Of a DNA stretch of 64,000 bases, positions 5,843 through 41,151 are shown piece by piece. The notes beneath the pieces are model-generated. The model did not search any database and had not been told where the DNA came from. It worked only from the letters and a program-made list of their open reading frames with translations. The DNA is from Austropuccinia psidii (Eukaryota > Basidiomycota > Pucciniomycetes > Pucciniales > Sphaerophragmiaceae). The stretch covers positions 50,157,662 to 50,221,661 of the forward strand of contig JALGQZ010000001.1 of NCBI GenBank assembly GCA_023105745.1, read 5' to 3'. Every line of letters begins with the position of its first letter. The first letter of the stretch is position 1. The translations under genes and the position numbers were made by a program.

Positions 5843-5875
5843 TCCATTTTCCCAATCAATAATGGCATTGAAATG

Positions 5876-6190: not shown

Positions 6191-6262
6191 TAGTATTCAG
6201 AGTGCACAATTGTGCTCTTGAAGGAAATAAGTGCGAACCATTGAACACATCATGATCCCCAC

Positions 6263-7625: not shown

Positions 7626-8330
7626 TATGAAGAATTAGAATAATAAACTTATGGTATTGAAAAACATAAATCAAAGCTTGGCCAAATCAATCACAATAAA
7701 GGTCTTGATGAGTCTTGAGGAATCAATTCAAATCTTGAGGTGAAGTCCAATTCAATCAATAATCAGATCAATTCAATCAATAATCAACAATTAATTCAAA
7801 TTCAATATCACTAATCTTGCAGAATTCAATAAACAATCAGTAAATCAATCAATGAATGTGTTCAAGGTCAATTCAAGGTCTTGAGGAATCAATTCAGTCA
7901 ATCAATATCTTCAGGAATCAAAATCAATAAATAATCAATAATCAATTCTTTAGGATAAATCAGTTATCTTGGGGAATGCAAAAGTCAATCAAATCAATCC
8001 AAATAAAGTCCTGAATCGCTGAATCAATAACCCAAATGAATCCCAATCAATCACCAATCAATAACCAATCAATAACTCCCGATATGACATGAATAAACAA
8101 ACAAAGAGAATTTGATTGAAATAAAATGAAGTTAAATGAGATGGCCAGCAATGATTAAGAAAAATAAAAAGAGTCAATTTTCATATTAAAGAAATGAATG
8201 AGATGAAAATTGATGAGAGAAAAATCATAATCATGAAAAATCATAAGATCATTAAAGAGTTATAATTGATGAATGAGAGAAATGAATGCAAATGAATGAA
8301 AAGAAAGAATAAAATATGAGTTAATTAATT
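7626..8330 (-). repeat. Element A leader with degenerate CAATCA repeats
   Basis: Upstream of the A gag start is about 700 bp with no ORF. From about 7680 to 8110 it is built of imperfect tandem units around AATCAATCAA, with a recurring GGTCTTGAGGAATCAATTCA module at least twice. The rest is A-rich. This is probably the untranslated leader between 5' LTR and gag, expanded by replication slippage. No primer binding site could be fixed with confidence. Confidence 0.5.
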
Positions 8331-17169: not shown

Positions 17170-17190
17170 TTTTGGGGGCCTAGCTATGTT
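17170..17190 (+). promoter_or_regulatory. Candidate primer binding site, element C
   Basis: Immediately after the LTR end is TTTTGGGGGCCTAGCTATG. D1, D2 and E have the near-identical TTTGGGGGCCTGGCC right after their LTRs. The position fits a primer binding site, with TGG pairing to a tRNA CCA end. I could not assign the tRNA. Confidence 0.6.
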
Positions 17191-17789
17191 TTTTGACTTC
17201 TTTGGACCTTACAAGTGAGTTTTCCCTTGTATTTTCTCTACTCTGACATACTTGATATATCTTTTCAGGCCTAATTTTTTAAAAATCAATATATAAAACA
17301 CATATTTTTTATATATTTCAGTGGTATATGTTATATACCACTAATATTTATCTTTTTTAATCATATTGTTGTGTGGTTGATTACAATTTAATCACCACAA
17401 AACCCTTATTTTTGGCGTTCTTTGCATATAAAAACACTTTATGCCATTAATACAGTCCTTTTTTTTAATTATATAACAAAACATCTTGTTGTAAAACCAA
17501 CAGTTGAGGCGTGGTTGGGTGCATTGTTAATTCAATTACCCTCTTACATACCACTTTTATCAGATTATATCTGCTAATTACAAGTTATTCTGTGAGATAC
17601 TGGCATACAAACAGTGTACCAGATATCTGTAAGCTGTATTTTTGACATGAAATTGTTAATTAAATTACACTGTCATTAAAAAAGGGTATATTGTAGTAAC
17701 ATACAAGCCCAGAGGCCATTCTTAGACGTGCAAACAGCATTTTAAGAAGTCTTAGGTGACATTAAGCCCTCTTTTCTGGTTTGATTCAG
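17191..17789 (+). other. Element C leader
   Basis: About 600 bp of AT-rich leader lie between primer site and first ORF1 exon. Near its start ATGTTTTTTGAC runs into CCTTACAA followed by GTGAGT, a strong 5' splice-site match at 17214-17219. Using it with the acceptor at 17789 would join an A to TG and create an ATG. No other conserved frame is visible. Confidence 0.4.
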
Positions 17790-18857
17790 TGGAAGAAAAC
17801 TACATACCACTTGAGACCCAGTCACAGGTAAAAACACTAGTGACACCCTCAGAACCAGAACGCAACAAGGGAAAAGGAAAGAGGCATAGTGAAGGCCTCA
17901 TAACACCAAGAAAGTGGACACCCATTGCCACTCAGAGGAATAGAAAACCATGAAACTCTGCTTCAATAAAAGGTAAACCAGCCGAACCACTTGTACAGGG
18001 AAGATTACCATAATGAACCCAGTTGTAACCTTTAAACGTAAATTGCCAATATCAGCAGACAAAGAGTTTGTACAAGGCACAGTCAAAGGTAAATACCCTA
18101 AGAACATGAAGTTTTTTACTGCTTCCAAACACTGATATGTCACCTGTACATCTCAGAAACCTTGGCTTCCAAAGTAACCAACCAGAGGACAGAGAAGGCG
18201 TGTCCAAAACCAGAAGACCTGGAAGAGGACACCTTGGACACAGTGGTGGATGGCAAGACACTGAGGGAAATCATACCCACTCTGCCATTCACTTTCCAAT
18301 TCAACAGGAACCTCAAACCAGAGGACTGGAAAGATATGGATCAAGTTCTTCAGCTCCACCAACTCTTCAAAGACTTATTTCAATTGAGCATGGACAACAA
18401 GAGGTTCAACCTTGCATCCCACTGCGCAGAACTTGGAGCAAGTTGCCAGAAGATTTCTCTCAAAGAGATAGAATTCAGAGACCTTATGGTAATCACCAAA
18501 GGTTGGAATCCCACCAGGAATTTCAGACTCCTGGAGGTGAGGGCAAACAGGATAAGGGAGAATCAAGCCACTATCCAAGCTATAGAACAACACCTGACCC
18601 AGACAGGGCATACTCAGATTCCTTCAGACTCACAAGAAGCAGGCCAAATCAGCTCTCCAGTGGCTTCACACCATTCAGAAACCAACAGATCAGTGGCCAA
18701 CAGTCACCATTCTTCACAATCCCAGGAAGTTTCCAGGAGAAGACAAGGATACAATGGCAAAAACAAGACCACCTTCAGCCAGAGGAAGAAAGAATCAGAC
18801 CCAATTATCCAGAAGCTGTTGGATTTGGTGAAAGAAGTGCACAAGAACCCAAATTAG
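17790..18857 (+). pseudogene. Element C ORF1 (spliced, overlaps gag)
   Basis: Inferred exons are 17790-17972, 18023-18088 and 18157-18857. Introns of 50 and 68 bp start GT and end AG, and both junctions are phase 1. The last exon is open for about 233 codons to a stop at 18857 and lies in the +1 frame relative to gag (start 18137). The first exon has one in-frame TGA at 17951-17953, so this copy is damaged. The product would be hydrophilic, with a long probably helical middle and a basic, Gln/Ser-rich C-terminus ending LLDLVKEVHKN. I do not recognise a named domain. The same layout recurs in D1, D2 and E, the main reason to believe it is a real gene. Its function is unknown; a Gag accessory or RNA-binding role is only a guess. 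Confidence 0.6.
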
Positions 18858-19793
18858 TTGTAAATAACTCTAGAATCAGTAGTTCCATTAATAGAAATAT
18901 TACCCCCAATCAGATTGATCACAATGTTGTCACACCTGAGAATACCCTAAACAGTGATTCACTGTGGTTACAAATGTCCCAATTTGCTGAGAAAACTCAA
19001 AAGCAGTTTGCAGAACTCCAAGTAAGCCAGGAGAGGATGAAAACATTAACATCATCCATGGACAAAATTGTCAAAAATCTGCAAGAGGGACATGCTCAGT
19101 TGAGCAAAGCCTCTGAAGAGACCAATAAAAGGCTGAATCTAGTATTTGAAGAACAACACCACAGAAAAGGGGACAGGCACTGTCTGGGTCAATACATAAA
19201 CAAACTGTTTAATGTCTACCATAACATGAAGCCCCAACCACAAAGGCATGTTATGGATAATCCATATCATCAAGATGAAATCAAAACAGATGCCTTGTTG
19301 ATAAATAAGGAAAGATCTCCATCACAATACCAGGATGGAGATAATATGTCTTATTCAGAGAAGGAAGCCCTGAAACAGCTTCCTGAGGCCTCAAGCTGGC
19401 CCAAATTCTCTGGAACAGGAGAATATGATCATATGGAGCTCATAGGCTATATTGATGGACTCTTCATTGATGTACCAAGCATTCCAGACTACTGGATTAA
19501 TGTAAGAATCAATACAGCAGTGAAAGGAAATGCTAGTATATTGTACACAGAAATGAAATAAATTCATGGAAGAAGAAGTTGGCCATGGTCAAAGAGTCAA
19601 ATAATCCAAAAGTACAGCAATGGTACTTGGATATGGAAAAATAACCTGACTTTTGAAAATGACAAATACTCTGTGGACAAAGATCCATATGAATGGTGTC
19701 TCAGACAGTCTAAAAGACTTAAAGCCATTGATCCTCAAATGAAAATTCAGATGAGGAATAATAAAGTCCTGACACAAATGCCAGGAGAACTAG
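18137..19793 (+). pseudogene. Element C Gag, 5' part
   Basis: The ATG at 18137 lies inside the inferred second ORF1 intron. About the first 240 residues overlap ORF1 in another frame and are low-complexity (Ser, Gln, Arg, Pro, Gly). From about residue 270 a coiled-coil-like stretch (SQFAEKTQKQFAELQVSQ...) precedes the capsid domain (LPEASSWPKFSGTGEYDH...). A TAA at 19559-19561 stops the frame after 474 codons. Capsid homology continues in frame beyond it to 19793, where a solo LTR is inserted. The rest of Gag resumes at 21635. Confidence 0.8.
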
Positions 19794-21629
19794 TGTAAGG
19801 TGTGGATATTGAACTTTGATTAAAAATCAAGTACTTTTCCTGTCCTCAAAATTTGTATAAGGTAAAAATAAAGTAAAAATAGTAAGAAATATTATTTTTA
19901 AGAGAAAACACGCCAATTTTATTGCTTATAGCTTTATTAGGATAAAACCATAATACTATAACGGTTTATTGTTTTACCAACAATAAAAATTTATCCAAAA
20001 ATACTTTACAAGAGATATTTAAGGCTACAAAAGAAAATTCTTCAAGAGCAATTTCAATTGGAATTAATTGAGAAAAGGACTGAAAGCAATCAATTGAAGA
20101 AAAGAGTCTTCAAAAATAATATTAAAGAAAAAAAACGCCCAATAGTGACCAGAGGGAATTTGGAAACAAAGTGACAAAGTTAACAGTGATGAAAGATGCT
20201 TTAATTCACTTTTGGAGTGTTTCAGGGGTAAAAATGATTATAAGAGTTAAAAACAATGATTATAATGATTTTTTCACGTGGTTAAAAGGTTCAAAATGAT
20301 CAAAAAAGGTGGTTGTAATCTTTTATTGATTGGTTTAACGGTGTTTAAACTAATTATAAAAGGAAAAGATTCTAACATGAAGAGAAAAGTGGGGCAAAGA
20401 AGACATTCTTTTATAGCCATCAATTTTCTTACTCCAAAAGTAAAATTTACTCTTGTCAGTCGTGAAAAACATTCTGACAACAGGAAATCCAATTATGGCA
20501 TCATTGAACCCTGGTTTAGACCAAAAAAGGGCTGGCTTTAGCCATTTTTTGCTATTTTCAGCCATTTTAGACCCTTAAATAAGCCATTACTATAGCAATT
20601 CCTGGTCTAGAGACTTCAAAAACCGTCAGAATGTGTGTAAGAGACTTAGAAACCAGTTAAAACTGTTTTTAATATGATTTTTTCATCTTAAGCGTAGTTT
20701 TACCCTCTTGGCAACAGCTAAAACTACCCCAGTTGGTATCAAAACCTCATCATTAATTGAGTTCACAGACCCTGTAGCTCAACTCCAGGCCAAAAGTTAT
20801 GAACCTTTGCGTGAATTTTGACACCACACGCCTGTCAGCAAGGATTTTGGGGGTCTGGCTCCCCCTTAGAGCTAGAGTTCCTTTCCCCCCCCAATTTTAA
20901 TCTTTCCGATTTATTTTTTCCTTTAATTCCTCATCATGTCTTATAATTGTAACTTACATATGTATTTTGATTGAATTGTACAGTAAAATACAGTAATAAT
21001 CGAAAACTCATATGTAAGTCAAAGCTCACTTATTTAATACATGTGCGCATTTTGACATTTCAATTGAATTCAATTGAAAATACTTCACTTCCTCATAACT
21101 TCTAAACTAAACACAATACCTCAATTTTAACACAAAAATTGATGTTTAACACCACATGTGGTGTGAATTAAATTGAAGTTTTGAGGATTTTCAATTTTTG
21201 TATTGAACATACTAAAAACTTAATTTAAGCTTATTTAGAGTTGAGTTACAAGAATTTCACTCAGAGGTGACCCCACCTAATTATTTATGAGGAATCCAAT
21301 AGTGTGATTATTTCTTTATGTTTATTTATTGGATGAAAATTTCTAATATATTTTATATAACGTTTTACCAAAAATACTTTAATTTCACAATTTTTATTAA
21401 AAATTCATTTTTACTTAATTTTTACAAGTAAAAATATAATTTCATAATTTTAAATTTTATTGCAATTTTATTTTTAAATTATAATTAAACTTTGATTTTT
21501 AAATATAAATTTGTATTTATATTTCAATTTTCATTTTTATAATATCAATAAATTCATTTTATTTATATTTGTATCTTAATTTATCTTTTGTGGTCTTTTG
21601 GGTATATGAAAATACCTCTGAGGCTCACA
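19794..21629 (-). mobile_element. Solo LTR in element C gag (TSD ACTAG)
   Basis: An 1836-bp unit bounded by TG...CA. On the minus strand it starts TGTGAGCC and ends CACCTTACA. ACTAG occurs immediately on both sides (19789-19793 and 21630-21634), a perfect 5-bp target duplication, so this is a clean insertion later reduced to one LTR. It matches 1-1544 closely. On the plus strand it contains GGGGGTCTGGCTCCCCC, a hairpin resembling an inverted primer binding site. Confidence 0.93.
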
Positions 21630-21634
21630 ACTAG

Positions 21635-22122
21635 AGAATTCAGTGAAATGCAGATGCATCCACAATTGCACTCTAGATGACATTGCAAATACCTAACAAG
21701 ATGTAAGGAAAAGAAATCATATAGGGAAATAAACCCCATATAAAAGCAGTGGTTTCAAAGAGAAACAACCTTTCAGGGTGGAGCTTAAAGACAAACCCAG
21801 AGAAGGAGTGGCAGAAGTGGCAAACAATAAATATTCTTGACACAACTGTGGCTCAACGGACCAACATGCTAACAACTGTCCAAAGGCAAAGAAAAAAGTC
21901 TATGCCATTGAGAAAGTCCCAGAGGAGGAATCCCCAACAGAGGATTTTGACTCATACTCTATGGGTGATGCCATCAGAGAACAATCTGATGAAGAGAAAG
22001 ACCCAAGACAAGAATTTCTTGTGGAATACCAAGAGGAAACCCCACTAGAAATCCAGGACATACAGTTAGAAGCCGGCATGCCACAAGACACTGCCAACAA
22101 AAACTTGTGCAAACACACACAA
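21635..22122 (+). pseudogene. Element C Gag, 3' part with zinc knuckle
   Basis: Continues the capsid from the left of the solo LTR, then a zinc knuckle and an acidic tail up to the D1 insertion at 22122. The knuckle reads HNCGSTDQHANNC, and the codon expected for its first Cys is TGA (21838-21840), one substitution from TGC. Frame is then kept to the end of the fragment (KNLCKHTQ), where it joins the protease region at 42993 once D1 is removed. Confidence 0.8.
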
Positions 22123-24041
22123 TGTGAGCCTTGAGGTATATTTTACATACCCAAATAGGCCTTAATTATCTTAAAAAGAAATTTTGAATTGTGCATAACT
22201 CATAAGTCATGCATGGATGCAAAATTCATCATTTTTGATTTCAGAAAAGATGAATAACTTTTTATTGAGTAAGTAAATCCATGGATTTAAAGCCAGATTG
22301 GGATTCTACACTGAAATTCACCTATGGTAGCTCCATAGAGTGAATAAGCTCAAATTAAGTCTTTGAAGTGGTAAAATGGAAGATACTTCAATACCACATC
22401 ATCAATACCACATAAAAGATCCGTGAAATTTTTTTTTCTTAAATTCACGCCAAAATAATGGGAAAGTGAGAAATTCCATGTTACATATATACTAAGAATA
22501 GTGTTATGCATGTTTTTAGCACTTAATGTCATGGTATTCTTACATGGACTTTTGGTACACCCATAGTGGATATCTCACTTTCAGCTTAAATTACTATTTT
22601 GACGTGAAAAATAGGCAAGGGGGACAAAAGACATCAAAGAGAGCCAGGGTACCCAACTTCTGAGGCCTCAGAGGCGTGGACAGCTCCAAAGCTTGGATCC
22701 ATGGCTGATCTTGGTCTAATTGGTAAACTAAAACCTTCTGGGAACTTGGTTACCATGTCACAACTACAGTAAAACTTAAGAAAATAGCAAAAAACCTGCT
22801 ATTTTGACGTGCCAAGGAGGTAATGAGCTACTTAGACTCCTGTAACCACGTCAATTCTTGATGACTTTCCATGACTAGACCCTAAAAGAGTAATTAAACC
22901 CTTTTGGGATCCATATTCAGTGATTTACCTCATAGCAACCAGTGAAACACTGATATTTGCAATTCTACCTAGAAATGAGGTAAAAACTTCAAAAATTCAT
23001 TAAAAATTCAATTCTTGATGAGTCTTTCTGAAACTTTCAGGACTAATACAGAACTGTATTATCTATAGTACAACCAAAAAGAATTATAGTTATACTAGTA
23101 AAATTAAAAGTTTTTACTTACAGTCCTTTTTTTGACTATTCTACATGAAACACTGAATCTTCAAAAATTCACAGTAATTACATCCTGTGATGAAATTGGC
23201 AATAACATTGATAACTTTGACAAATCAATGCATATTTTGGAATAAAAAATATTTACAGATGTTACTCCTTTTATTCTTAACCATATTGGGGTTGGTAGTC
23301 TTGTAAACACATCAATTAAGTAATTATGATGATCTTACGTGACTACAAATGATGCAATCAATAATACAAAAAGGTTTATTGTTTTCTCACTCACTGGTTT
23401 TTCAGTTTGCTCCATGGCACTCCTCTGTGGGCTGTTTTTGACTTAAAAGAAGCCTCTTCTTGCTGTTTTTTCCACATCATCATCTTATTATCATTTAAAT
23501 CATTATTACCAACAAGTAAGTATTAGTTCCAGCTATTCTTAAGTGTTTTAAATCTTTCGGAATAAATCAGAAAGACGTGAAATCATAGAATCCAACTATA
23601 TATTGTTTTAATACTGTTATGAATCCATTTTGATCCTTAAAATCCACAATTCTACGTCAAATCTCTCTATCTTATCTTTCAATAAGCTCTTTCAAATATT
23701 AGTGCGTGATTTATCTTTAATTCTTAAAGGTTTTCTCTAAAATTAGTTTTCTTCAAGAATCATCATTATAATTATTCTTGCAAAAGATAATTATATATTA
23801 AAATAATTTTATTATTTTAATAAAAGAAGTTTTATTATTAAAATCTTCTTGTAATTGGTTCTAGTAGACAATTACTTCCTCACTGTTAAAATCACTAGTA
23901 GTGCTTAACACGTGAAAGCAATAATTCTTTAATTATTTGCTTGTGGTTATAATAATATTTTATTATTATATTTAATAAGAACCGACACAGTACTGTTGAT
24001 TAATAGTGATATTATCATCAGTTTCATAGTCACATCTTACA
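22123..24041 (+). mobile_element. 5' LTR of D1
   Basis: 1919 bp from TGTGAGCC to CATCTTACA. Near the start a GGTAT...ATACC inverted repeat is present. A consensus-like 5' splice site, CAACAA then GTAAGTATT, lies at 23516 in the presumed transcribed part. It aligns with the LTRs at 12149, 14082, 41152 and (inverted) 48657. Confidence 0.93.
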
Positions 24042-24407
24042 TTTGGGGGCCTGGCCATGTTTTTTGAACCTTGTATCCTTAACTAATATATTTTTAAGTT
24101 CTAAAATATATTAATTTAATAATTTTTTCTTTCATTTTGAAGTTAAAATAATTCTTATTTTTGAAATTGTTTTGGAAATCTTTTTCATTGAGGAATTTGG
24201 TTTAATTTTATACTGTTTTTACACATGGCTTTTTCACATCCAAGAACTTATAAAATTATTCTTTGAGTTGCTTTGAATTGATTTTCATTCAAAATCTTAA
24301 ATTTCAATTTTTTTGATATTAAAAAATATAAAACTTATAAAAAAATCTTTAAAAATATTTTAAAAAGTATAAAAAATAATTTTTTCTCTTTTATAATTTG
24401 TTCCTAG
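24042..24407 (+). other. D1 primer site and leader
   Basis: TTTGGGGGCCTGGCCATG follows the LTR end and is the candidate primer binding site. A block at about 24187-24280 (TTGAGG...TTTGG, then GGCTTTTTCACATC and CTTTGAGTT) recurs in D2 (31269-31360) and E (56570-56660) amid otherwise diverged AT-rich sequence. A pyrimidine-rich tract ends in TTCCTAG at 24407, the inferred acceptor of the first ORF1 coding exon. The conserved block may be a packaging signal or an unrecognised exon. Confidence 0.5.
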
Positions 24408-25394
24408 TGTCTTTAATCAAATACTGTGCAGCTGGCAACAGACTCAGTAAAAAATATATTACTAGTCCAGAATCTTCAGAAGCAGAATCTGAAGACATTA
24501 ATGAGGTGCAAATTGCTAAAAGAGGCACCTTATTTAACTCAGAAAAGGCTAAATTACCACCAAAAGGTGTGTATTTTATCTTATATTTTCACCTTTTATC
24601 TTTAAATTGATGTGAAAATGGTGCATACCAGAAATGGAAGAAACTATTCAGTCCAACCAGATGGATGTGGACAAGGAAGAGGCAAGACCAAATCCAGAAG
24701 TGCCACGTCTTCCACAAGAAAGACACATTTGGAGGATGCCAGAGTTGCCCCCGATTCCCCAAGGTCTGTACCAACAGATTTTGACGTGAATTCTGAGCCT
24801 GAACTGATTCATGACCATATTTCCAGGGCTGAACCATTTTCAAGTGACAGCAATAGAAATATATCAATGCCAGTACAAAAATTGGTTCAGAGCAGCCAAC
24901 GAAGAGGAGTGGGAAATATGCCCAAGCCTCTGGCAGGGGGCCATGAACTCCTACTTACACATCAAGAGCTTGTGGGTCAGGAGAAGACCATAGAACTCTT
25001 AGGAGAATGGAGCCCCCTGTCTTGCAAAGACAAGGTCAAAAAGATAAAGAATTGGTTGAAGAACCAAAGTCTTTTATCCATAGACCAGAAGAAGGAACTG
25101 GAAATGACTCCAGCTTTGGAGACAGAGGCCCCAGTGGTGTCTACCAGCTCCAAACCAGCTCCAGAAGTATCCAAAGAAAAGCCCAAAGGACCTCAGAAGA
25201 AGCAGAGAGGTCCCAAGAGCCATCAAGGCAAGGGCAAAGGCAAAGCAAATTGGCACAGACCTTACCCACAAGGGTACAGGATCCCCAAATTGGAGCCTTC
25301 AGCAGTGGACAGTGTGTTCATTATGGCCAGAACTCTCATGGAATTCACAGCCAAGGAACAAGAAAGGATGAACAGGACTTTTCCACGCAAATAA
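24408..25394 (+). pseudogene. D1 ORF1 (spliced, overlaps gag)
   Basis: Inferred exons are 24408-24566, 24632-24763 and 24827-25394, with introns of 65 and 63 bp (GTGTGT...CAG and GTCTGT...CAG) and phase-1 junctions. The reading goes from acidic SPESSEAESED, through QMDVDKEEARPNPE and RHIWRMPELPPIPQG, to a Trp/Tyr-rich helical part (YQCQYKNWFRAANEEEWE). It then has a Lys-rich stretch (PQKKQRGP...GKGKGKANW) and a conserved tail ([16 protein letters not shown]). A 1-nt deletion near 24970 shifts both this frame and the overlapping gag frame. No known domain is recognised. The basic stretch suggests nucleic-acid binding, which is inference. Confidence 0.6.
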
Positions 25395-26640
25395 TTGATG
25401 AAATACACTTTGTTAAATCTAGTATTGATGTAGAACTTGGCAAATTTGATGCAAAGTTAAATAAAATCATATTGGACATAGGTGAATTAAAAAGAAATGC
25501 CAAAAATTTTACTGAATGGTATGAATTAACAAATTCCAGATTTGATTCAATGCCAAATTCTTGTAGCAGAATTGAGAGTACATGTCAGATTCAGAATAAT
25601 GAAATGGAAGATCTTTCTATTTTTAAAATGAATGATCAACTTAAGATTCTACAAGATCATATCTTGAAGATAGTTGAAAATACCAATCAGTTTGCTACAC
25701 ATTTAGCAAAAAGTGACAATGAAAGGCAGAAGTTAAAGAATTAAATCATTGCAAATGTAGAACAAATTCATAAGAATTATGAACCACATATGCCAAGACA
25801 TTCTACACCTTTGACTGAAGAAAAACTTTCTGTTAAAGGAAGTTTTATCCCACTTCTAGAAGAAAATGTTGTCTCTGTCAAAGATATTCCCAAATTAGAA
25901 GAATGGCCAAAATTCTCTGGTGAAGGAGAATATAACCATATTGAGTTCATCAGGACTATTGATATGTTACAGGAAGACTTTAATATACCTGATGAAATCA
26001 TAGTGGGGAAATTACACTCTCTGTTTTCCAAGACTGCACAGAAATGGTATTACAAGATGAGGATGGATCATGGAAAACATGATTGGTCTTGGTGGAAATC
26101 TGAAGTGATTACCAAATGGGCCAACAATTCTTGGAGGTTTAAAATGGAAAATGCTTTTGAAAGTGCCATTTTTAACTCAGAGAAAGATAAACCACTTACT
26201 TGGTTCTTCAAACAAAAAGACATATTATCTGCTTTACACCCAGATATGTCCGACCCTATGATTAATATGAAAATATTAAGAAAGTGGGGAGGAGAACTGG
26301 AACATGCTATCAAAAGCAGATGTGTAGAACCCTGTTCAACAGAGGACTAAATTAATGCAATGGAAGATATTATTACCAGAACAAGAATTGGTAAAACTTG
26401 GACTAGAATCCCTATGGAATCCAAGATGATCCCAAAGATTCCCAGGGAGGATAAAAGACCAGAAAGACCTGTCTTGAAGTGTCATAAATGTGGAAGTACT
26501 TCACATTTAGCTAACACTTGCACCAAAAAGACAAAAATCAATTAAGTTAAGGTCATTGAAGAAATTCAGTGTACTGAAGAGAAAGAAGAGTCTGATCAAG
26601 ATTCTGCAGTCTCTGAAGATACACCAGTGGAGGACTAACC
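24618..26640 (+). pseudogene. D1 Gag
   Basis: The ATG at 24618 lies 11 nt before the inferred ORF1 acceptor. After an N-terminal part that overlaps ORF1 comes a coiled-coil-like region (25390-25740), a TAA at 25742-25744, then the capsid domain (KLEEWPKFSGEGEYNH... to GGELEHAIKSRC). A further TAA at 26348-26350 (Tyr codon in D2) precedes an intact CCHC zinc knuckle, CHKCGSTSHLANTC, at about 26482-26523. More stops follow in the acidic linker (26543, 26636). The early frame changes at about 24970. Confidence 0.8.
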
Positions 26641-27239
26641 CATTGAAAACATTACAGCTTTCTTTGAGTTCAAATATGTCCATACCCACTTGCCACAGTA
26701 CAGTAAGGATTGCTGCAACCTGATCAATATCCAAGATGCCAGAATGTGTAAAACAAAACCTGCTAGAGGAAAGGGTTACACTTCTGGAGCATCCTGTATC
26801 ACATCAGTTTTGATGAGTGATATTGAAGCCAAAGTAAATTTGGATACAGGGGAATTTTGCACATGTGTGGGCAAAGATTATCTCCAAATTATACTTCCTG
26901 AATGGAAAAACCACTATTACCAATAGAAGGTGTGCAATTTAGTAGTGCTAGTAACAATATGTACCCCTTGGGTATATTAGACACTAATCTAAAACTGAGA
27001 TTGTTGTAATGGATAATTGCACATCTCAGCACATCATTCTTGGAAATGATTACTTGAATATCTATGTTATTGACATAAATAACCATAAAGACAGATATTT
27101 CACAATTGGGGATAACAAGAGACAAAAATTTGCTTTTTCCAATATGCCAAAACAAATATCTGTAGTATCTTCTGTCAAGGATAATTACAAAAATGAATTT
27201 GTGTCTAATCAACTTTTTGAAGCACAAATTAATCCATAA
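26641..27239 (+). pseudogene. D1 protease region
   Basis: The aspartic protease active site reads VNLDTGEFCTCVGKDYL with the D-T-G triad intact. A shift near 26926-27000 changes frame before NCTSQHIILGNDYLNIY, the conserved second half. The piece ends at a TAA (27237-27239) where D2 has a sense codon. It is homologous to D2 residues of about 730-920. Confidence 0.8.
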
Positions 27240-28875
27240 TTGTCACCAAAAATGAGGAATGAACTTATTAATGTGTTATACACATACAAAAACACATTTG
27301 CCTCTGATAATGAACCATTAGGTGCTATAAGGGGACATGAAGTTGATATTACTCTTAATATTGACAGGCCATATCCTCCAGTACTTAGAAGACCAGCTTA
27401 TCCAGCCAGTCCCAGAGCTAGAGAAGCCTTAGAAAAACATCTCCAAGAGTTAATCCAACCTGGTGTACTAAGAAAAGTAGGCCATAATGAGGAAGTTGAA
27501 GTGACAACACCTGTTATTATTGCATGGCATAATGACAAGTCAAGAATGGTTGGGGATTTCAGCGCATTGAATACCTAAACAGTTCCAGATAGGTATCCAA
27601 TCCCTAGAATTCAAGAAACCTTGACTCAATTGTCTAAAGCCAAGTATATAACATCAATGGATGCATTGAAAGGCTTCCATCAGGATGTTTTGATGCCTAA
27701 AGCTAAGAAATTACTTAGAATTATCACTCACTGTGGTATTTATGAGTATCTTAGAATGCCATTTGGCATTAAAAATGCTCCATCCCATTATCAAAGAATG
27801 ATGAACACAATCTTTCCCACAGAATTGTCTTAAGGGTGGCTTATCATTTATATTGATGATATTATCATATGTTCTGATTCATGGTCTTTGCACCTTGAAA
27901 GACTTGCAAAAGTACTTCAAAAAGTTGCAGAAGTGAACATGAAAATTTCACTTAAGAAATGCAATTTTGGTTTTGAAGAACTCAAAGCATTAGGACATAT
28001 TGTTTCTGGTTCAAGCTTGGGTATTGACAAAAACAAAGTAGCAGCAGTGTTACTTAAGCCAATACCCCAGAATAAAAAAGAAATGATGTCTTTCGTTGGG
28101 TTTTCCAGTTGTTATAGGAAACACTTGAAAGACTTTGCAATTCTAGCCAAGTCACTTTATAGAATCTGTGATCAACAGGATGTATTTGAGATGACACAGG
28201 AGACAATTAAAGCTTATGAGAAGATAAGGAGAGCTCTTACAGAAGCACCTTTACTCCTAATGCCTGACTGGAATATTCCTTTTCAAATTGTACATTGATG
28301 CATGTGGAGATGGATTAGGGGAAGCCCTACATCAAGTCCAAATTATTGATGACAAACCTACATAAGGACCAGTTTGTTACATCTCAAGGAAAATCAAACC
28401 AACAGAAGCCAGATATGGTGCAAGCCAAATGGAGTGCTTATGTTTGGTATGGGCACTTGAGAAATTACACTATTATCTTGATGGCAGTGTTTTTGAAGTG
28501 ATAAATGACTGTAATGCATTAAAATCACTTCTTAACATGAAAACTCCCAACAGACACATGTTGAGATGGCAAATAGCCATTCAGGAATATAGAGGCAACA
28601 TGACTATAGTTCACAAAGCAGGAAACATTCACACGAATGCTGATGGACTTAGCAGGTGGGCAGTAGCCAACACTCCTGATAACCCAACTTATGTACCCTT
28701 GGAAGCTGAACCACAGATTCCAATTGAAGGGATTGATATAACTGATATTGGGACTGACTTTGTTGAAGAGGTCAGAGAATATTATAAGCAAGACACGAAT
28801 TGCCATATCTTGACTTCTTTGTTAGATAAAGACTGCAAAGATACATCTTTGGTCAATGCACTAGATGAACTTTGA
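27240..28875 (+). pseudogene. D1 reverse transcriptase and RNase H
   Basis: RT runs from 27240 with [24 protein letters not shown] and [16 protein letters not shown] to the catalytic YIDD at about 27849-27860, intact here. Stops replace single codons at 27576 (Tyr in D2), 27831 (Glu in D2) and 28873 (Trp in D2). A small insertion near 28285 shifts the frame at the RNase H start ([11 protein letters not shown]), and RNase H continues to [13 protein letters not shown]. The lesions are scattered single events, typical of slow decay after insertion. Confidence 0.85.
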
Positions 28876-28905
28876 AGAAATTCCTATTCTGAAAGGAGAT
28901 TTCAC

Positions 28906-29109
28906 TTGTTTGATGGGATTATTTACCACAGAACCAAACCTTCTTGTGTAATGACATCATGCAGCAGATTGCTTATCAATACAATTCTTCATGAATGCCA
29001 TGATAGCATCTACTCTGGACACCTGTCAGAGGACAGAACACTTGAAAAAGCAAAGAACTGTGCATGGTGTCCATCTTGGAGAAACAAAACCATTGAATAT
29101 TGCCATACC
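28906..29109 (+). pseudogene. D1 integrase, 5' piece before D2
   Basis: Encodes the start of the integrase HHCC zinc-binding domain ([17 protein letters not shown]... to EYCHTC). It is interrupted at 29110 by D2, and the frame resumes at 39826 with the remaining Cys residues. Confidence 0.85.
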
Positions 29110-31136
29110 TGTGAGCCTTTGAGATATGACGACATACCCAATAAGGTCACAAAAAAGACTCAGAATAATTATACCTTTAATATAATTATATTAAAATTAC
29201 TTAGAATAATTATACATTAAGAATAATTACTTAAATATACAAAAAAATACCATAAATTGGTACAAAAATTGGTTTAACTTAAAAACCAATGAATCAACAT
29301 GTAAAATAAATTATACCATTGGGTTCCCCATGGAAAAATACACATATACCATTTTTATGGCATATCTGTAAAGTCAATATTTAAGGAATTATAAGGTATA
29401 ATACCTTATAAAAACCATAAAACCTTATTTATCTCAAGAACTAATGTAATAACATGTGAAATAAATTGTACCAGTGGATTCTCCATAAACATCCACACAT
29501 AAAACAATTAATAAGCTAATTTCCAATGTTAATACTTAAGGAATTAACCTGAATATATGCACTTTTTTGGTCAATGGATATATTCAAGGATCATAGCTAA
29601 TATCTTCTAAACTATACATGATAGAATGATGAACCAAAAATAAAGTTACCACGTAATTACTGTAAGAACGCAGATATGAACTTTATTTTACAAATTATAA
29701 ACAAGGTTAAAACCTGTGATGAAATATTGATAAAAATCAACAGAGCTGTTGACCACTTTGTTGTGAAAGTGCTCCAAACTTAAAAAAAAGTATACAGTTG
29801 GATTCTACTAGCTCATTCGTGAAGAATGATGTAATTTTTATTATTAAATTCACGGTATAACCCCCTGAAATCAAGGTTTGAAGTTTAAAATATTGAATTT
29901 CGACAGAAAAGATGAGTTACAAGAAAAAGCATCAAAGTTAGAGTTTTGATGATGTAATGAAAGCCTCTTGGCAGCATAATGAGGTTATTCCAGGCTATCA
30001 GAATTCACCCTCTGAATTGCTGTAGCGTGTAAATCTTAAAAGTTATTGAGGATCAAAGTTTGAGCTTAATTTGAGCAGTTATGATCACACACTGTAACCT
30101 TAATTTAAGTTTAACAGTCTTAAGAGTGATAAAATTGGTGAATACTATTAGTTTGTGATTAAGGCTATTAAAATACACAAAATTTGGGGTTCGGCCAAGC
30201 CTCTGATGTCATCAACTTGAGAGTTATAGTGATAACTCTAAATAATGGTGTAATAATGATGTAATATGGTTTGATAATGATGTAATCATCTCCAAACCTT
30301 AAAATATTGATCAATTCCAGTGGATATGATCAGTACACGTCTACTAGAAGCATGTTGGACTCTAGGAGGGAGGTATTTACTATAAATAGAGCTCTTTTTA
30401 CTCTATTTACCCCTCAGACGCATCAAAAACATTAAATCAATTAAATAAAAGGAAATTTCTTTATTCTTTATATATAAAACTCTTATATTATTAAAGACCA
30501 AAGACCATCTTAATATTAATCACTATTTTTGTGTGATTAAATCAATTCTTTAATTGTTTTTGTCATAAATCTCTCTATAAACTCATTTCCACGTAAAATC
30601 AAGAAATTTAGTAAATTTTCTTTATTTTTATTGTAACTACAATTTGAAAAAGTTGTATTATATTCTTTTGGCGTAAAATATCTCAAAATTATTATTTTAA
30701 GTGTTAAAAGTAGGTTATTTCATCTTATTATAATAATTTCTCTCTTATTATTACTCTTAATAACTCTTAATTAATATAAATAGTATTTATATTAATATAT
30801 AACTTTAATATTGGTAATATTATTGTTATTAATTGTTTTTTATTTTATAAAAAACAGTTTTTTACGCCTTTATTATTTGTTGGTAACAATAATAAAGAGC
30901 TTTATAATATATTAATTATTTTATATTAATATATTATTTACAATATTATAATTTCATATAATATTAATTATATTATTATATTTATTTAATAATATAATAT
31001 TTTTACGCCATAATAATAATATTTCTTTATTATTATTATTATTTTAATCTTATTTATTTCAATTATAAGGACATTCAGAGTACAATAAGTAATAAATTAG
31101 TAATTTTTACTTATTGCTTCATAGTAAAACCTTACA
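29110..31136 (+). mobile_element. 5' LTR of D2
   Basis: 2027 bp from TGTGAGCC to CCTTACA. It is AT-rich and contains a canonical TATA box at 30381, then a pyrimidine-rich likely start region (ACCCCTCAGACGC) and AATAAA at 30444. The second half has TTACGCC and TTGGCGT motifs that retain CpG. A decayed minus-strand relative is at 53007-54192. Confidence 0.95.
30381..30390 (+). promoter_or_regulatory. TATA box of D2 5' LTR
   Basis: TATAAATAGA is an exact TATA-box match, and the same sequence occurs at 39055-39064 in the 3' LTR. Transcription would be expected to start about 25-40 bp downstream, near the CTCAGACGC segment. That places the U3/R border about 1.3 kb into the LTR. Confidence 0.7.
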
Positions 31137-31658
31137 TTTGGGGGCCTGGCCGTGATATTTACTTAAAAGACCTTTAAAAAGATTCTATTTGGGTTTATCC
31201 AATAATAAATTATATTTATAATCATAAAATTATATAATAATTTTATATTTTATTGATTTTAAAAAGCTATTGAGGCATTTGGAAAGCAATTTTACTGTCT
31301 TACACGTGGTTTTTCACATCCTTAGACTTGCAAGAACTTTCTTTGAGTGACTCTAGTGATTAAAAAAGATAATTTATAAATTAAAAATAATTTTTATTAT
31401 AATCTAATTTTATAAAGAATCATATTAATTTTTATTTTATTCCTTAAAAATAAAAAATAAAAAATAATAAAAAAATATTAAAAAATATTAAAAAATCTTA
31501 AAAACCAATAAAAAAGTTATTTTTATTCATTTTTATTCATTTCTTTATTCATTTCAAGTTTTTAAAGATATAAAAGCAATTTCTATGTGGAAAATTGCCA
31601 TATCTTGCCAAAAAAAACACTTCTTATCAAAAGACTTATATTTATTTGTCTTTTTTAG
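31137..31658 (+). other. D2 primer site and leader
   Basis: TTTGGGGGCCTGGCCGTGA at 31137 is the candidate primer binding site. The leader is AT-rich, with the conserved block at about 31269-31360 shared with D1 and E (CTATTGAGGCATTTGG, GGTTTTTCACATC, CTTTGAGT). It ends in a T-rich tract and TTTTTTAG at 31658, the inferred acceptor for ORF1. Confidence 0.55.
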
Positions 31659-32576
31659 TGTTTGAAGATAACCCAACAGAAGACAACCAAGCTACTGTTG
31701 AGAAGTTGGTGGAAGAAACTTGTCAAAGTTCTCCAACACCAGTTATCACCAAAAGAAAGAAAGCTAAGAAATTAGACTTTCCAGGACCCACCATTCAAGA
31801 CTCTGAAGGTGAGCACCTCTTTTTAAATTGCCATAAAAGAATTTTATTCTAAAATACTTTTATTTTTTCTTATTCTTCAATTATGACTACCAGAAGAGGT
31901 TCCCAATACTCCATCCAATCAGATGGAGCTGGACTCAGAGGTAGAATTGATCCCTCAAAAGGGAAAAGAAAGGGCAATATCCCCAGTGGAACAGAATCCA
32001 CACAAGGAAGTTCCTTATCCCAAAGGCAAGTCCCAGAAATGCCCATGATATCTGAGCCTGAATTGGAACTAAGTATGAGTAACTCAAAGAGGTACAAATC
32101 ACATTCAGAAGGCTCAAATAGACATCTACATGAGCCAGTACAAGCAGTATTGCACAGTGTACAAGGACAAAGATTGGGAAATGTTGCCTCAAATACACCA
32201 AGGAGTGATGAACTCCTGGCACATCCTGAAAAAGTTCCTCAAAGAGGAGGAGATAGTGAAATACTCCAATGGATGGAATCCACTGTCATCCAAACCTCAA
32301 ATCAAAAAAATCAAGGACTACCATGCCAAAAAGAGGGAGGCAACCAAGGAAGAAGCCCCAGTAGCTTCTACCAGCAAGCCCCAAGCCAACCCACTTCCCC
32401 AAGAAGGGAAGAAGAACAAGAAAAAGCATTGGAAGAAACCATATTCCCCAAGCTACAGAATCCCAAGAATCCAAAAGGATGCCATGGACAATGTTTTCAA
32501 CATGGCCAGAACCTTGATGGAATTCAAGGACAAGGAAGAGCAAAGAATGAGACAACCTCATTTCCCAAAGAAATAA
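31659..32576 (+). CDS. D2 ORF1 (spliced, in +1 frame over gag)
   Basis: Inferred exons are 31659-31808, 31894-32025 and 32122-32576. Introns are 85 bp (GTGAGC...CAG) and 96 bp (GCAAGT...TAG, a GC-AG intron), with phase-1 junctions as in the sister elements. There is no in-frame stop, so this copy may be functional. Its start codon would come from an upstream exon supplying the base before TG. The protein has an acidic N-terminus, [13 protein letters not shown], a Tyr/Trp-rich helical part ([20 protein letters not shown]), a Lys-rich stretch ([13 protein letters not shown]) and the shared tail [16 protein letters not shown]. No named family is recognised. It overlaps the gag frame for about 690 bp. 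The splicing is inferred, not observed. Confidence 0.6.
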
Positions 32577-35500: not shown

Positions 35501-37177
35501 TATAGACAGCATATAAAGGACTTTGCAAAGATTGCTAAATCCTTGTATAAGCTATGTGACCAACAAACAGTCTATGAGATGACAGAAGAAAGAGTCAAGG
35601 CATATGAAGAATTGAAAAATTCCTTAACGAATGCCCCATTCCTTCTGATGCCAGATTGGAAACTACCCTTCAAACTGTACATTGATGCTTGTGGAGAAGG
35701 ACTAGGTGCTGCACTTCACCAAACACAAATTATCAATGATAAACCAGTGGAAGGACCAATTTGTTTCATTTCAAGGCAGATAAAGCCAACAGAAGCAAGG
35801 TATGGAGCAAGCCAAATGGAATGCTTATGCCTAGTGTGGGCTTTAGAAAAACTGCATTATTATTTGGATGGCACAGTATTTGATGTAATCACAGACTGTA
35901 ATGCTGTGAAATCACTATTAAATATGAAGACTCCAAATAGACATATGCTGAGATGGAAAATTGCTATCCAAGAATATAGAGGAAATATGACTATTGTTCA
36001 TAAATCTGGAAATATTCATAAAAATGCAGATGGTCTTAGCAGATGGGCTCTAGCAAATACCCCTGACAATCCAGCATGGGTACCACAAGAAGAGCACCAT
36101 ATAGAAGGGATATGTGTTACAGACATTGGCACAGAATTCTTTAACCAAGTTAAAGAAAGCTATAAGACAGACAAAAATTGCCATATCTTAAGCCAACTTC
36201 TAATGAAAGACTGCAAAGATCCATCACTTTCATCAAAACTAGATGAAATATGGAAAAAGGCATATGATGAAGGAAGATTTCACCTCCTTGATGGAATCCT
36301 TTACCATAGAACAAAACACACATGTGTTATTGCCTTAACAGACAGAACACTAATAAACACTATTTTACATGAGTGTCATGATAGTGTTGCATCTGGACAT
36401 CTCTCAGAAGATAGGACACTAGAGAGGGTGAAAACCTGCTCTTGGTGGCCAAATTGGAAGAAGGATGTTGCAGAGTACTGCCAAACCTGTGACAGATGTC
36501 AAAAAGCCAACAGAGCCACAGGAATGAAATTTGGAATGATGATCCAAATCCAACAACCAAAATCCCCATGGGAAATAGTTCATATGGATTGGGTAACAGC
36601 CTTACCTCCAGGAGGAGACAGGAGTTATAATGCATGCCTAGTGTTAGTTGACAGGTACAGTAAAACTCCCATGTTCTTACCATGTCATAAAGATGACACA
36701 GCTATGGATACAGCCATAATGATATGGAATAAAGTCATTAGCCACACAGGCTTATTCCAAAATATTATAAGTGACAGAGACCCAAAGTTCACTTCATCAT
36801 TATGGACAAATCTCCATAAATTGTTTGGGACAAAGTTATCATTCTCAACAGCTTATCATCCTCAAACTGATGGTCTAGCAGAAAGAATGATACAGACCCT
36901 AGAGGATATGATCAGAAGATTCTGTGCTTATGGGCTAGAATTCAAAGATTCTGATGGTTTTACCCATGATTGGTGTACACTAATACCAGCACTTGAACTG
37001 GTATATAAGACATCAATCCATTCTTCTACTGGAAAAACACCAGCAATGCTAGAGAAAGGTTGGAATCCAAGACTTCCTTATGATACCCTCAAAAAGGACT
37101 TAGTGGATATACATCCAACAGCAAGAAGTTTCAAGATAATGCTTGACAAAGCAAGACACCATGCAAGATTCTTTTAA
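31883..37177 (+). CDS. D2 Gag-Pol polyprotein (1764 codons)
   Basis: One frame encodes Gag and most of Pol. Residues 1-230 are low-complexity and overlap ORF1; about 232-392 is a long coiled coil; about 442-586 is the capsid domain ([13 protein letters not shown]). The CCHC knuckle [14 protein letters not shown] is near 643 and an acidic Ser/Glu stretch near 672-697. The protease triad D-T-G is near 770. RT spans about 930-1170 with YIDD at 1119-1122, and RNase H has its first Asp at 1268. Integrase follows with an HHCC region near 1500 and the triad D1569, D1631, E1667, the last two separated by 35 residues as in active integrases. Gag and Pol are in one frame, with no stop or shift between them. 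The frame ends early because of a 14-bp deletion near 37167. Confidence 0.93.
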
Positions 37178-37661
37178 ATATGCAAAAGAAAGATGGGATA
37201 AAAGTCATAAGCCACCTGATTTCAAAATAGGAGACTTGGTTTTAGTATCAACCCTTAATTTCAATGACATAAAAGGCCCAAAGAAATTGAAAGATTCCTT
37301 TGCAGGACCATTTATGATAAAAGCACTTCATGGACCCAATGCTGTGCAATTAGAACTCACAGGTGAACTAATGAACAAACACCCAACTTTCCCTGTAAGT
37401 CTAATAAAACCTTACAGTTCAAGTGACAAGGAGTTATTTCCACTAAGAAATAAACCCCCACTTGAAATTCCCCCCTTGGAAGAAGGAGAAGAAAAGAAAA
37501 TAGTAAAAGTCCTTAAAGAAAGAAGGACAAGAAACAAAAAAGAAAGGGAATACCTTGTAAGGTATAGAAATTCAACTCAAGAAGATGAATGGCTATTTGA
37601 GAAAGATATAACAAATGCTGATAAACTACTAAGAAGGTTCAGACATGAAAGAAAGCCTTAA
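37178..37661 (+). pseudogene. D2 integrase C-terminus, out of frame
   Basis: After the deletion the polyprotein continues in another frame (readable from about 37168). It holds the GPF module (KDSFAGPFMIKALHG), the PVSLIKPY segment and a C-terminal chromodomain-like module (KIVKVLKERR...EYLVRYRNSTQEDEWLFEKDI) before TAA at 37659-37661. Compared with B and E, about 14 bp (part of a Gln-Ser-Met-Asn-like stretch) are missing. The missing base count explains the shift exactly. Confidence 0.88.
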
Positions 37662-37785: not shown

Positions 37786-39820
37786 TGTGAGCCTTTGAGA
37801 TACGACCACATACCCAATAAGGTCACAAAAAAGACTCAGAATAATTATACCTTTAATATAACTATATTAAAATTACTTAGAATAATTATACATTAAGAAT
37901 AATTACTTAAATATACAAAAAATACCATAAATTGGTACAAAAATTGGTTTAACTTAAAAACCACTGAATCAAGATGTAAAATAAATTATACCATTGGATT
38001 CCCCATGAAAAAATACACATATACCATTTTATGGCATATCTGTAAAGTCAATATTTAAGGAATTATAAGGTATAATACCTTATAAAAACCAAAAAACCTT
38101 ATTTATCTCAAGAGCTAATGAAACAACATGTGAAATAAATTGTACCAGTAGATTCCCCATGAAGATCCACACATAAAACAATTAATAAGCTAATTTCCAA
38201 TGTTAATACTTAAGGAATTAACCTGAATATATGCACTTTTTTGGTCAATGGATATATTCAAGGATCATAGCTAATATCTTCTAAACTATACATGATAGAA
38301 TGATAAACCAAAAATAAAGTTACCACGTAATTACTGTACAAACACAGATATGAAATTTATTTTACAAATTATACACAAGGTTAAAACCTATGATGAAATA
38401 TTGATAAAAATCAACAGAGCTGTTGACCACTTTGTTGTGAAAGTGCTCCAAACTTAAAAAAAAGTATACAGTTGGACTCTACTAGTTCATTCGTGAAGAA
38501 TGATGTAATTTTTATTATTAAATTCAGGGTATAACCCCCTGAAATCAAGGTTTGAAGTTTAAAATATTGAATTTCAACAGAAAAGATGAGTTACAAGAAA
38601 AATCATCAAAATTAGAGTTTTGATGATGTAATGAAAAGCTCTTGGCAGAATAATAAGGTTTTGCCAGGATATCAGAATTCACCCTCTGAATTGCTGTAGC
38701 GTGTAAATCTTAAAAGTTATTGAGGATCAAAGTTTGAGCTTAATTTGAGCAGTTATGATCACACACTGTAGCCTTAATTTAAGTTTAACAGTCTTAAGAA
38801 TGATAAAATTGGTGAATACTATTAGTTTATGATTAAAACTAATAAAATACACGAAATTTGGGGTTCTGCCAAGCCTCTGATGTCATCAACTTTAGAGTTA
38901 TAGTGATAACTCTAAATAATGGTGTAATAATGATGTAATATGGTTTGATAATGATGTAATCATCTCCAAACCTTAAAATATTGATCAATTCCAGTGGATA
39001 TGATCAGTACACGTCTACTAGAAGGCTGTTGGACTCTAGGAGGGAGGTATTTACTATAAATAGAGCTCTTTTTACTCTATTTACCCCTCAGACGCATCAA
39101 AAACATTAAATCAATTAAATAAAAGGTAATTTCTTTATTCTTTATATATAAAACTCTTATATTATTAAAGACCAAAGACCATATTAATATTAATCACTAT
39201 TTTTGTGTGAGTAAATCAATTCTTTAATTGTTTTTGTCATAAATCTCTCTATAAACTCATTTCCACGTAAAATCAAGAAATTTAGTAAATTTTCTTTATT
39301 TTTATTGTAACTACAATTTGAAAAAGTTGTATTATATTCTTTTGGTGTAAAATATCTCAAAATTATTATTTTAAGTGTTAAAAGTAGGTTATTTCATCTT
39401 ATTATGATAATTTCTCTCTTATTATTACTCTTAATAATTCTTAATTAATATAAATAGTATTTATATTAATATATAACTTTAATATTGGTAATATTATTGT
39501 TATTAATTGTTTTTTATTTTATAAAAAACAGTTTCTTACGCCTTTATTATTTGTTGGTAACAATAATAAAGAGCTTTATAATATATTAGTTATTTTATAT
39601 TAATATATTATTTACAATATTATAATTTCATATAATATTATTTATATTATTATATTTATTTAATAATATAATATTTTTACGCCATAATAATAATATTTCT
39701 TTATTATTATTATTATTTTAATCTTATTTATTTCAATTATAAGGACATTCAGAGTACAATAAGTAATAAATTAGTAATTTTTACTTATTGTTTCATAGTC
39801 AAACCTTACAATACCTGTGA
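37786..39820 (+). mobile_element. 3' LTR of D2
   Basis: 2035 bp, nearly identical to 29110-31136, including the TATA box at 39055-39064. One difference changes AAAAGGAAATT in the 5' copy to AAAAGGTAATT here, which makes a GT after AAAAG and a potential 5' splice site. Confidence 0.95.
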
Positions 39821-41007: not shown

Positions 41008-41151
41008 ATATTTCTATAAATGTGCTTTGAATTACTTGATCTGAGTAATGTAAAGAGGTTGGGCAATGGACATTAACCCCCCTTTGGGGCTTTTTATTAT
41101 TTCTATCATTGATGAAATTGTAGTACAATTTTATTTTTTGGTGGGAGGGAA

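Follow-up and report, generated by a model that had tools for sequence, protein, structure and literature searches.

A likely splice-expressed accessory gene over gag in Ty3/gypsy elements of Austropuccinia psidii

Can the start of a retrotransposon gag gene hold a second protein, and by which route would that protein be made? The question is raised by a stretch of 64,000 nucleotides (nt) from Austropuccinia psidii (contig JALGQZ010000001.1), hereafter the window, which belongs to an assembly of 1.015 Gb. The genome of this rust is described, in excerpts of its publication, as slightly larger than 1 Gb, with a share of transposable elements above 90%, chiefly Gypsy (PMC8063080). The window holds nested Ty3/gypsy elements, D2 within D1 within C, and a separate one, E. 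For these four the original prediction proposed a conserved second protein, ORF1, encoded over gag in a frame at +1. We consider it likely, from the sequence, that these families encode an accessory ORF1 of about 255–333 residues by splicing, and that their unspliced RNA would serve for Gag-Pol.

The frame at +1 to gag is present at all four places; in D2 the gag ATG stands at 31883 and an ORF1 codon starts at 31896, in C at 18137 and 18159. The segments named for it are there as well: QM(D/E) in D1, D2 and E, RHxWRMxELPPxP in D1 and E, QYKNWF in D1 and E and QYKQY in D2, the Lys-rich stretch, and the MARTLMEF tail in D1 and D2. D1 has a 1-nt indel near 24970, at which the ORF1 and gag frames shift in step. 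The frame is not the single open one that had been supposed. Its acidic start lies in a frame that stops short at a GT donor and is not continued by the rest, and the positions taken as frame starts (17790, 24408, 31659 and 56924) each come right after an AG (AG/TG; a slash marks a splice junction). A second short intron of D1, D2 and E falls on the stops that separate the ELPP-type from the xNHxQ segment. This splicing layout escaped the original prediction, which has no exon 1, no intron around the gag ATG and no further intron in D1, D2 and E.

Exon 1 opens in all four elements with TG directly after AG, and closes at a phase-1 GT donor. The intron that follows, intron 2, is a phase-1 intron of 62–85 nt with the gag ATG inside. 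Of this intron 17, 11, 8 and 11 nt lie after the gag ATG in C, D1, D2 and E (ATG at 18137, 24618, 31883 and 57089), and the first AG after that ATG leads to the ORF1 frame in 4/4 elements. A further phase-1 intron of 63–66 nt takes out in-frame stops in D1, D2 and E. When the exons are joined, the D2 window copy gives one unbroken protein, with 254 residues following the start codon; E stays open as far as its truncation and D1 as far as the 1-nt indel, and exon 1 of the C window copy has a stop and a length difference. The E window copy is truncated, and its gag frame is interrupted by stops. The arrangement recurs at the same place in the four elements; that splicing takes place is our inference. 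The proposed structures are as follows.

31347–31658, plus strand: D2 proposed intron 1, A/GTGACT ... TTTTTTAG/TG, putative donor; the joined A/TG would be the ORF1 start
31659–31808, plus strand: D2 ORF1 exon 1 (acidic)
31809–31893, plus strand: D2 intron 2, phase 1, GTGAGC...CCAG, includes the gag ATG
31894–32025, plus strand: D2 ORF1 exon 2 (QMELD segment)
32026–32091, plus strand: D2 intron 3, phase 1, AG/GCAAGT ... AG (GC-AG type), three ORF1-frame stops, gag open
32092–32576, plus strand: D2 ORF1 exon 3 including the stop
24267–24407, plus strand: D1 proposed intron 1, TTCTTTGA/GTTGCT ... CCTAG/TG, putative, from the window copy
24408–24566, plus strand: D1 ORF1 exon 1
24567–24631, plus strand: D1 intron 2, GTGTGT...CCAG, gag ATG at 24618
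24632–24763, plus strand: D1 ORF1 exon 2
24764–24826, plus strand: D1 intron 3, GTCTGT...TTCCAG
24827–25394, plus strand: D1 ORF1 exon 3, with the 1-nt indel near 24970
17215–17789, plus strand: C proposed intron 1, TTACAA/GTGAGT ... TTCAG/TG
17790–18088, plus strand: C ORF1 exon 1; in the window copy a stop and a 1-nt length difference
18089–18156, plus strand: C intron 2, GTAAAT...CTGAT...CTCAG, gag ATG at 18137
18157–18857, plus strand: C ORF1 exon 2 including the stop
56648–56923, plus strand: E proposed intron 1, TTCTTTGA/GTTATT ... CTCTAG/TG, putative
56924–57040, plus strand: E ORF1 exon 1
57041–57102, plus strand: E intron 2, GTGAAT...TAG, gag ATG at 57089
57103–57237, plus strand: E ORF1 exon 2
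57238–57303, plus strand: E intron 3, GTTAGC...CTGAC...TTAG
57304–57726, plus strand: E ORF1 exon 3, cut off at the passage into the reverse transcriptase (RT) region

Is this frame selected as a protein? Copies of the families were taken from the same genome and ranked by similarity to the ORF1 exon 2 or 3 protein. Out of 39714, 15632 and 31621 first-look candidates 150 were scored in each case, and 30, 50 and 24 of these were fetched; with such a ranking the shares given below are not those of random copies. The C set holds 49 copies, the window copy excluded, the D2 set 30 rows (window and 29 copies), and the E set 24 rows from 25, window included, the locus L100 with its unrelated 5′ part being left out. 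Singleton variants, mostly post-insertion decay, were compared with variants shared by at least three copies, mostly inherited, as nonsynonymous over synonymous counts (N/S) in each frame. Over C exon 2 the ORF1 frame falls from 360/110 (3.27) among singletons to 69/51 (1.35) among shared variants (p=5e-5; 49 copies). The gag frame goes from 392/78 (5.03) to 95/25 (3.80; p=0.28) and the third frame from 371/98 to 99/22 (p=0.61). An earlier run on 30 C rows agreed in sign (ORF1 p=0.006, gag p=0.24). In C exon 1 the ORF1 frame drops from 167/48 to 51/45 (p=3e-5), and the other two frames rise, from 165/50 to 84/12 and from 163/53 to 78/18; this exon lies outside gag and outside the search query, so the ranking bias is not directly applicable to it. 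The 24 rows of E behave alike over exon 3, with 149/50 (2.98) against 15/17 (0.88) in the ORF1 frame (p=0.003), and 157/42 (3.74) against 25/7 (3.57) in gag (p=1).

A comparison between elements, made on the window copies, which were not selected by ORF1 similarity, points the same way. In five pieces of D1, D2 and E, aligned with ORF1 as the guide, identity is 35–62% in ORF1, 21–36% in gag and 21–38% in the third frame; ORF1 is above both other frames in 5/5 pieces. Gag is higher than the third frame in 3/5 pieces, by 1–9 points, and lower in 2/5. Over ORF1 the gag sequence changes at roughly the rate of the third frame, which is unused, yet it stays open.

The openness of gag is more than the ORF1 protein alone would leave. 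In copies chosen solely for an unbroken ORF1 overlap exon, gag stops average 1.37 in C versus 10.15 after synonymous ORF1 shuffling (19/49 copies), and 0.88 in E versus 8.57 (17/23 copies), with P<=0.01 per copy. Nine shuffles of single copies, five of which had been chosen for open gag, gave 0 gag stops versus 5.1–10.5 in eight, and 1 versus 5.2 in the E window copy. The reverse shuffle, with gag kept and ORF1 stops counted, is weaker: synonymous gag codon shuffling leaves few ORF1 stops (mean 1.2–2.8; P 0.01–0.16, 6 tests). ORF1 thus holds the sequence constraint, and the gag leader mainly must stay open. The few ORF1 stops also mean that the openness of ORF1 is in itself weak evidence, and they would suit a chance open frame over a low-complexity gag leader. 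Such a chance frame is contradicted by the constraint in two families and between elements, and by the coding-like exon 1 outside gag in C; we reject a chance overlap on the C and E constraint, the D1/D2/E identities and the gag-stop shuffles, and hold it for highly improbable. The ORF1 exons evolve as protein-coding sequence, with constraint in the C and E families and between D1, D2 and E. Equal decay of the two frames is not seen in the synonymous and nonsynonymous comparison, and the expectation that ORF1 carries most of the constraint in the overlap is borne out by the variant tests in C and E and by the identities between D1, D2 and E. This makes a clean case of overprinting, in which the ORF1 sequence is preserved and the overlying gag leader mainly stays open.

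How would this frame be reached? Most of the copies sampled for C, D2 and E retain the splice sites. In C the AG before exon 1 is present in 45/49 copies, the intron 2 GT in 42/49 and its AG in 49/49, and the gag ATG in 45/49. The distance from the first full codon to the donor is exactly 298 nt in 32/49, the joined frame is unbroken in 9/49, with a common stop after 332 codons, and the gag overlap is unbroken in 13/49. The D2 rows have the intron 2 GT in 28/30, AG in 29/30, the gag ATG in 28/30 and AGTG in 28/30; the joined frame of 255 codons including the stop is intact in 26/30 and gag is open in 25/30. Intron 3 of D2 has a GC donor in 28/30 and an ACAG acceptor in 28/30, the window copy being one of 2 with AGAG, and it holds three ORF1-frame stops in 17/30 rows, four in 12 and six in 1. 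In the E rows the intron 2 donor and acceptor are found in 24/24 each, the intron 3 donor GT in 22/24 and its acceptor AG in 24/24, the AG before exon 1 in 20/24 and the gag ATG in 22/24. The joined E frame ends at exactly 271 codons in 8/24 rows and at 265–267 in 4 more. As a side observation, four C-family loci (L041, L046, L070 and L072), which are not within one another's four nearest relatives, have in common an intron 2 donor changed from GT to TT.

A true overlapping ORF1 might also be translated without introns, by leaky scanning, by reinitiation at the M[DE]xD start 40 nt past the D2 gag ATG, or by a frameshift from gag. An ATG at 31923 of D2 does open the +1 frame shortly past the gag ATG, and D2 exon 3 has an internal Met from which models of 148 residues are annotated. 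However, in D1, D2 and E an intronless +1 frame is closed by stops that lie within the proposed intron 3; C exon 1, which is constrained in its own frame, would be useless, and splice-site dinucleotides are preserved in most copies. We regard an intronless route as unlikely.

ORF1 read from the spliced RNA would need a start codon, and the leader may offer one. Exon 1 begins with TG, at codon positions 2 and 3, so that an upstream exon 0 has to supply one base. In C a strong donor, ACAA/GTGAGT, stands at 17214/17215 with an exon side ending in A. The donor motif is found in 27/30 C loci reaching this part, window copy included; as read by eye, A/GT is present in 24 and the donor reads GTGAGT or GTAAGT in 21, and 20 other C loci are too short to include the intron 1 donor. 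The leaders of D1, D2 and E have the motif TTCTTTGA/GT in common, with A/GT kept in 27/30 D2 rows and the motif with A/GT in 12/13 E leaders. The A/TG join of exons 0 and 1 is probably the ORF1 start codon, created by splicing.

The counts of ATGs from the exon 1 start to the gag ATG bear on the other product. There are 0 in D2 versus 3.6 expected from base shuffling, 0 in E versus 2.9, 2 in D1 versus 3.7 and 3 in the C window copy versus 4.9; the 49 C copies have a mean of 0.67 before the gag ATG versus 4.5, and none in 24 of them. This scarcity is consistent with gag being translated from unspliced RNA. We suggest the following scheme.

Step 1: On the unspliced RNA the gag ATG would be used and Gag-Pol made. 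The AUG of ORF1 would be created by the leader intron (A/TG), and thus ORF1 would have no start on this RNA.

Step 2: With the leader intron removed and the short phase-1 intron 2 spliced out, the gag ATG, 8–17 nt before the end of intron 2, would be deleted and the upstream exon fused to the +1 frame over 5′ gag. D1, D2 and E would additionally remove the second short intron. Gag-Pol and ORF1 would therefore be mutually exclusive on any one RNA.

Step 3: The basic, helical ORF1, made early, might enable the element to export, protect or use its unspliced RNA, as the protein CERV does for the nematode element Cer1, discussed below.

Several observations weigh against this scheme. The proposed intron 1 donors of D1 (GTTGCT) and E (GTTATT) are weak, and because of them the intron 1 step is one that we only infer. 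The two ATGs of D1 and the three of the C window copy lie before gag in exon 1 and intron 2, and further leader ATGs stand upstream: 4 in C, 2 in D1, 1 in D2 and 1 in E. In C the intron 2 GT is absent from 7/49 copies and the gag ATG from 4/49. Ranking copies by similarity to ORF1 exon 2 or 3 can deplete nonsynonymous variants there; E exon 1 goes merely from 38/10 to 2/3 (p=0.09) and E exon 2 shows no fall, from 40/14 to 3/0, with three shared variants only. An open joined frame does not by itself single out the junctions, since in D2 2098/24849 two-intron combinations with GT or GC donors stay open; joined-frame openness was rejected as proof of exact junctions, many GT-AG choices leaving the frame open. 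An AG 5 nt past the proposed D2 acceptor joins exon 1 to gag with the frame open. Other points concern the protein. Between the ORF1 of C and that of D2 or E no significant sequence similarity is seen (profile probability 0.5% and 0.3%; BLASTP E-value 0.11). The structure-based search that had been proposed for the D2 protein returned no fold match among Protein Data Bank (PDB) structures, the best E-value being 1.8; the model, with a mean pLDDT (AlphaFold confidence score) of 65, is too weak to give this result much weight. Nor do the five joined proteins show a pattern like a nuclear localization signal (NLS) or nuclear export signal (NES) that is common to all families.

The extra AG in D2 would suit another reading, in which exon 1 is spliced to the gag frame, so that an extended Gag isoform is made and ORF1 arises only as a by-product. 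Among single-intron GT-AG choices in D2 3/211 leave the frame open, and all 3 lead to gag; gag acceptors are also possible in 3/9 C copies with unbroken joined ORF1. In the other 6/9 only ORF1-frame acceptors stay open, a weak point, as these copies carry gag-frame stops anyway. The sequence constraint, however, sits in ORF1 and not in gag, and in each of the four elements the AG that comes first past the gag ATG joins to the ORF1 frame. A longer Gag as the main product seems to us quite improbable, more so than translation without introns, and splicing to ORF1 is the reading that we retain.

What kind of protein would be made? Joined with the start Met, ORF1 has 255 residues in D2, 272 in two E copies and 333 in two C copies. 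In D2 and E, unlike C, it is acidic at the start, with a middle part that is helical, a stretch rich in Lys and Pro, and a helix at the end; all five joined proteins examined are basic overall (pI 9.2–9.7). AlphaFold gives D2 ORF1 five helices. NLS-like stretches occur in D2 and the two E copies, and NES-like ones in the two C and two E copies. The ORF1 parts scanned have no Pfam match above cut-off and PDB sequences no match at E-value <0.1; neither Pfam, PDB sequences nor PDB folds provide a known domain.

D2 and D1 ORF1 are 43% and 50% identical to that of an E-family copy (E-values 3e-44 and 4e-36; single comparisons). C had been described as more diverged yet like the others; its position, frame relation and size do agree, as does its intron-2 layout, and its homology by sequence is unsupported in profile comparisons and BLASTP. 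C and D/E ORF1 may be homologous or alike merely in layout. D2 ORF1 has 828 database relatives, the best 120 of which are all hypothetical proteins of A. psidii MF-1, up to 95% identical. In the 12 annotated MF-1 proteins examined the gene models split or mix the gag and ORF1 frames; models that fuse gag and ORF1 pieces (P0023, P0059 and P0089) use other junctions and were not counted as evidence. If our reading is true, the public A. psidii gene models need correction.

The elements themselves are laid out as follows. Coordinates of long terminal repeats (LTRs) are those of aligned stretches.

29110–31136, plus strand: D2 5′ LTR, partner at 37786–39810, 97.1% identical (self blastn)
22121–24041 and 41150–42987: D1 LTRs, 88.9% identity
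15758–17136 and 46725–48106: C LTRs, 88.9% identity
54192–56188 and 60937–62932: E LTRs, 94.4% identity
31883–37177, plus strand: D2 gag-pol frame from the gag ATG, with CCHC knuckle, RT, RNase H and integrase
18137–19561, plus strand: C gag frame, from ATG to the first stop of this copy

The nest is three deep and spans 15758–48106. Paired LTRs flank the coding region in C, D1, D2 and E, and RT-RNase H lies ahead of integrase, as expected of Ty3/gypsy: a Pfam scan of the D2 frame gives the order zf-CCHC (20.7 bits, cut-off 20.8), RVT_1, RT_RNaseH, Integrase_H2C2 and rve. The D2 gag-pol stop-to-stop frame has 1774 codons, with zinc knuckle, RT, RNase H and integrase. It stops at 37177; the end of pol seems to run on in another frame, so that the frame of this young copy is broken close to the end of the integrase, at 37140–37661, a part that resembles an integrase-end chromodomain by eye only. 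In E the ORF1 exon 3 frame leads directly into the RT region at 57686–57740, and most of gag and the protease are missing although the LTRs are 94.4% identical. A stretch like TTTGGGGGCCTGGCC follows the 5′ LTR in all four (31137–31151 in D2, 24042–24056 in D1, 56376–56390 in E, 17170–17185 in C) and is their putative primer binding site; the LTRs of C and E probably extend to it (17170 and 56376). No tRNA was found within the 64-kb window. On the minus strand, 2002–7634 is another, different Ty3/gypsy-like element. Over the part presumed to be the start of its gag (7206–7634) the list of open frames shows no second one of 100 codons from stop to stop, and thus ORF1 may not belong to every such element here.

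Complex retroviruses typically have accessory genes expressed through splicing; to our knowledge, such genes have been described for few LTR retrotransposons. Rev of HIV-1 acts on unspliced RNA. The likeness to ORF1 would be in this action, which is the role we guess for ORF1, and we know of no sequence link between the two. In plants, splicing in the elements BARE, EVD and Bagy2 reportedly favours Gag over Pol or yields an env-like mRNA, and the fungal element Boty is said to carry an antisense gene, brtn. We know of no case in BARE, EVD or Bagy2 where splicing makes a new other-frame protein over gag. These plant elements resemble our case in that splicing sorts the products of one LTR-element transcript (for the Bagy2 env, excerpts of PMC7264820). 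According to the same excerpts, additional open reading frames (ORFs) of plant LTR elements lie mostly between pol and the 3′ LTR, in sense or antisense (PMC7264820). Like them and brtn, one of them fungal, ORF1 is an extra gene in an LTR element; unlike them it is in sense and over gag.

The Drosophila MDG1 group (412, mdg1 and blood) has accessory ORFs at the 5′ side, sORF1 and sORF2, with low non-synonymous change; sORF1 is nuclear and sORF2 a membrane protein likened to fusogens (excerpts of PMC11952523). Their place in a Ty3/gypsy element is like that of ORF1. They are about 110 residues each and upstream of gag, whereas ORF1 has 255–333 and is mostly over gag, and in the main text of that paper, as far as its excerpts extend, 'intron' is absent and 'spliced' occurs once (PMC11952523). 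In the open-licence papers searched no spliced or overlapping gene is reported for Ty3/gypsy elements of rusts or other fungi, and two rust genome papers contain no mention of 'gag', while 'splic' is absent from one and stands once in the other, in a reference title. As a kind, accessory genes of LTR elements expressed by splicing are known; for one that lies over gag and is spliced in such a way that the gag start codon is lost, no report was found in the open-licence literature searched.

The closest studied case by position and expression logic is CERV of Cer1, a Ty3/gypsy element of C. elegans. In the excerpts available of its description, CERV is an accessory protein of 517 residues from a spliced mRNA with 5 exons, partly in a non-gag frame; gag and pol have no intervening stop, and the unspliced RNA, which is both genome and gag-pol mRNA, requires CERV for its export (PMC10309623). 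If made from spliced RNA, as its splice sites and coding signal suggest, ORF1 would be alike as an accessory protein of a Ty3/gypsy element. It differs in that part of the CERV gene lies between pol and the 3′ LTR, whereas every ORF1 exon found is 5′ of or over gag, and in that ORF1 splicing would delete the gag ATG. A Rev/CERV-like regulator acting on unspliced RNA is the role that we would guess first for ORF1, at less than even odds; other candidates are an early nuclear factor in the manner of MDG1 sORF1, a regulator that binds Gag and an anti-silencing factor. The full proposal, a binary splice switch that creates the AUG of a regulator and deletes that of Gag-Pol, with ORF1 as a fungal counterpart of Rev and CERV that aids family spread in a gigabase genome, is speculative and rather doubtful. 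If it is true, many-copy families of a rust with a 1 Gb genome possess a regulator together with an on/off choice at splicing, and one transcript could select either of two programmes from the same nucleotides.

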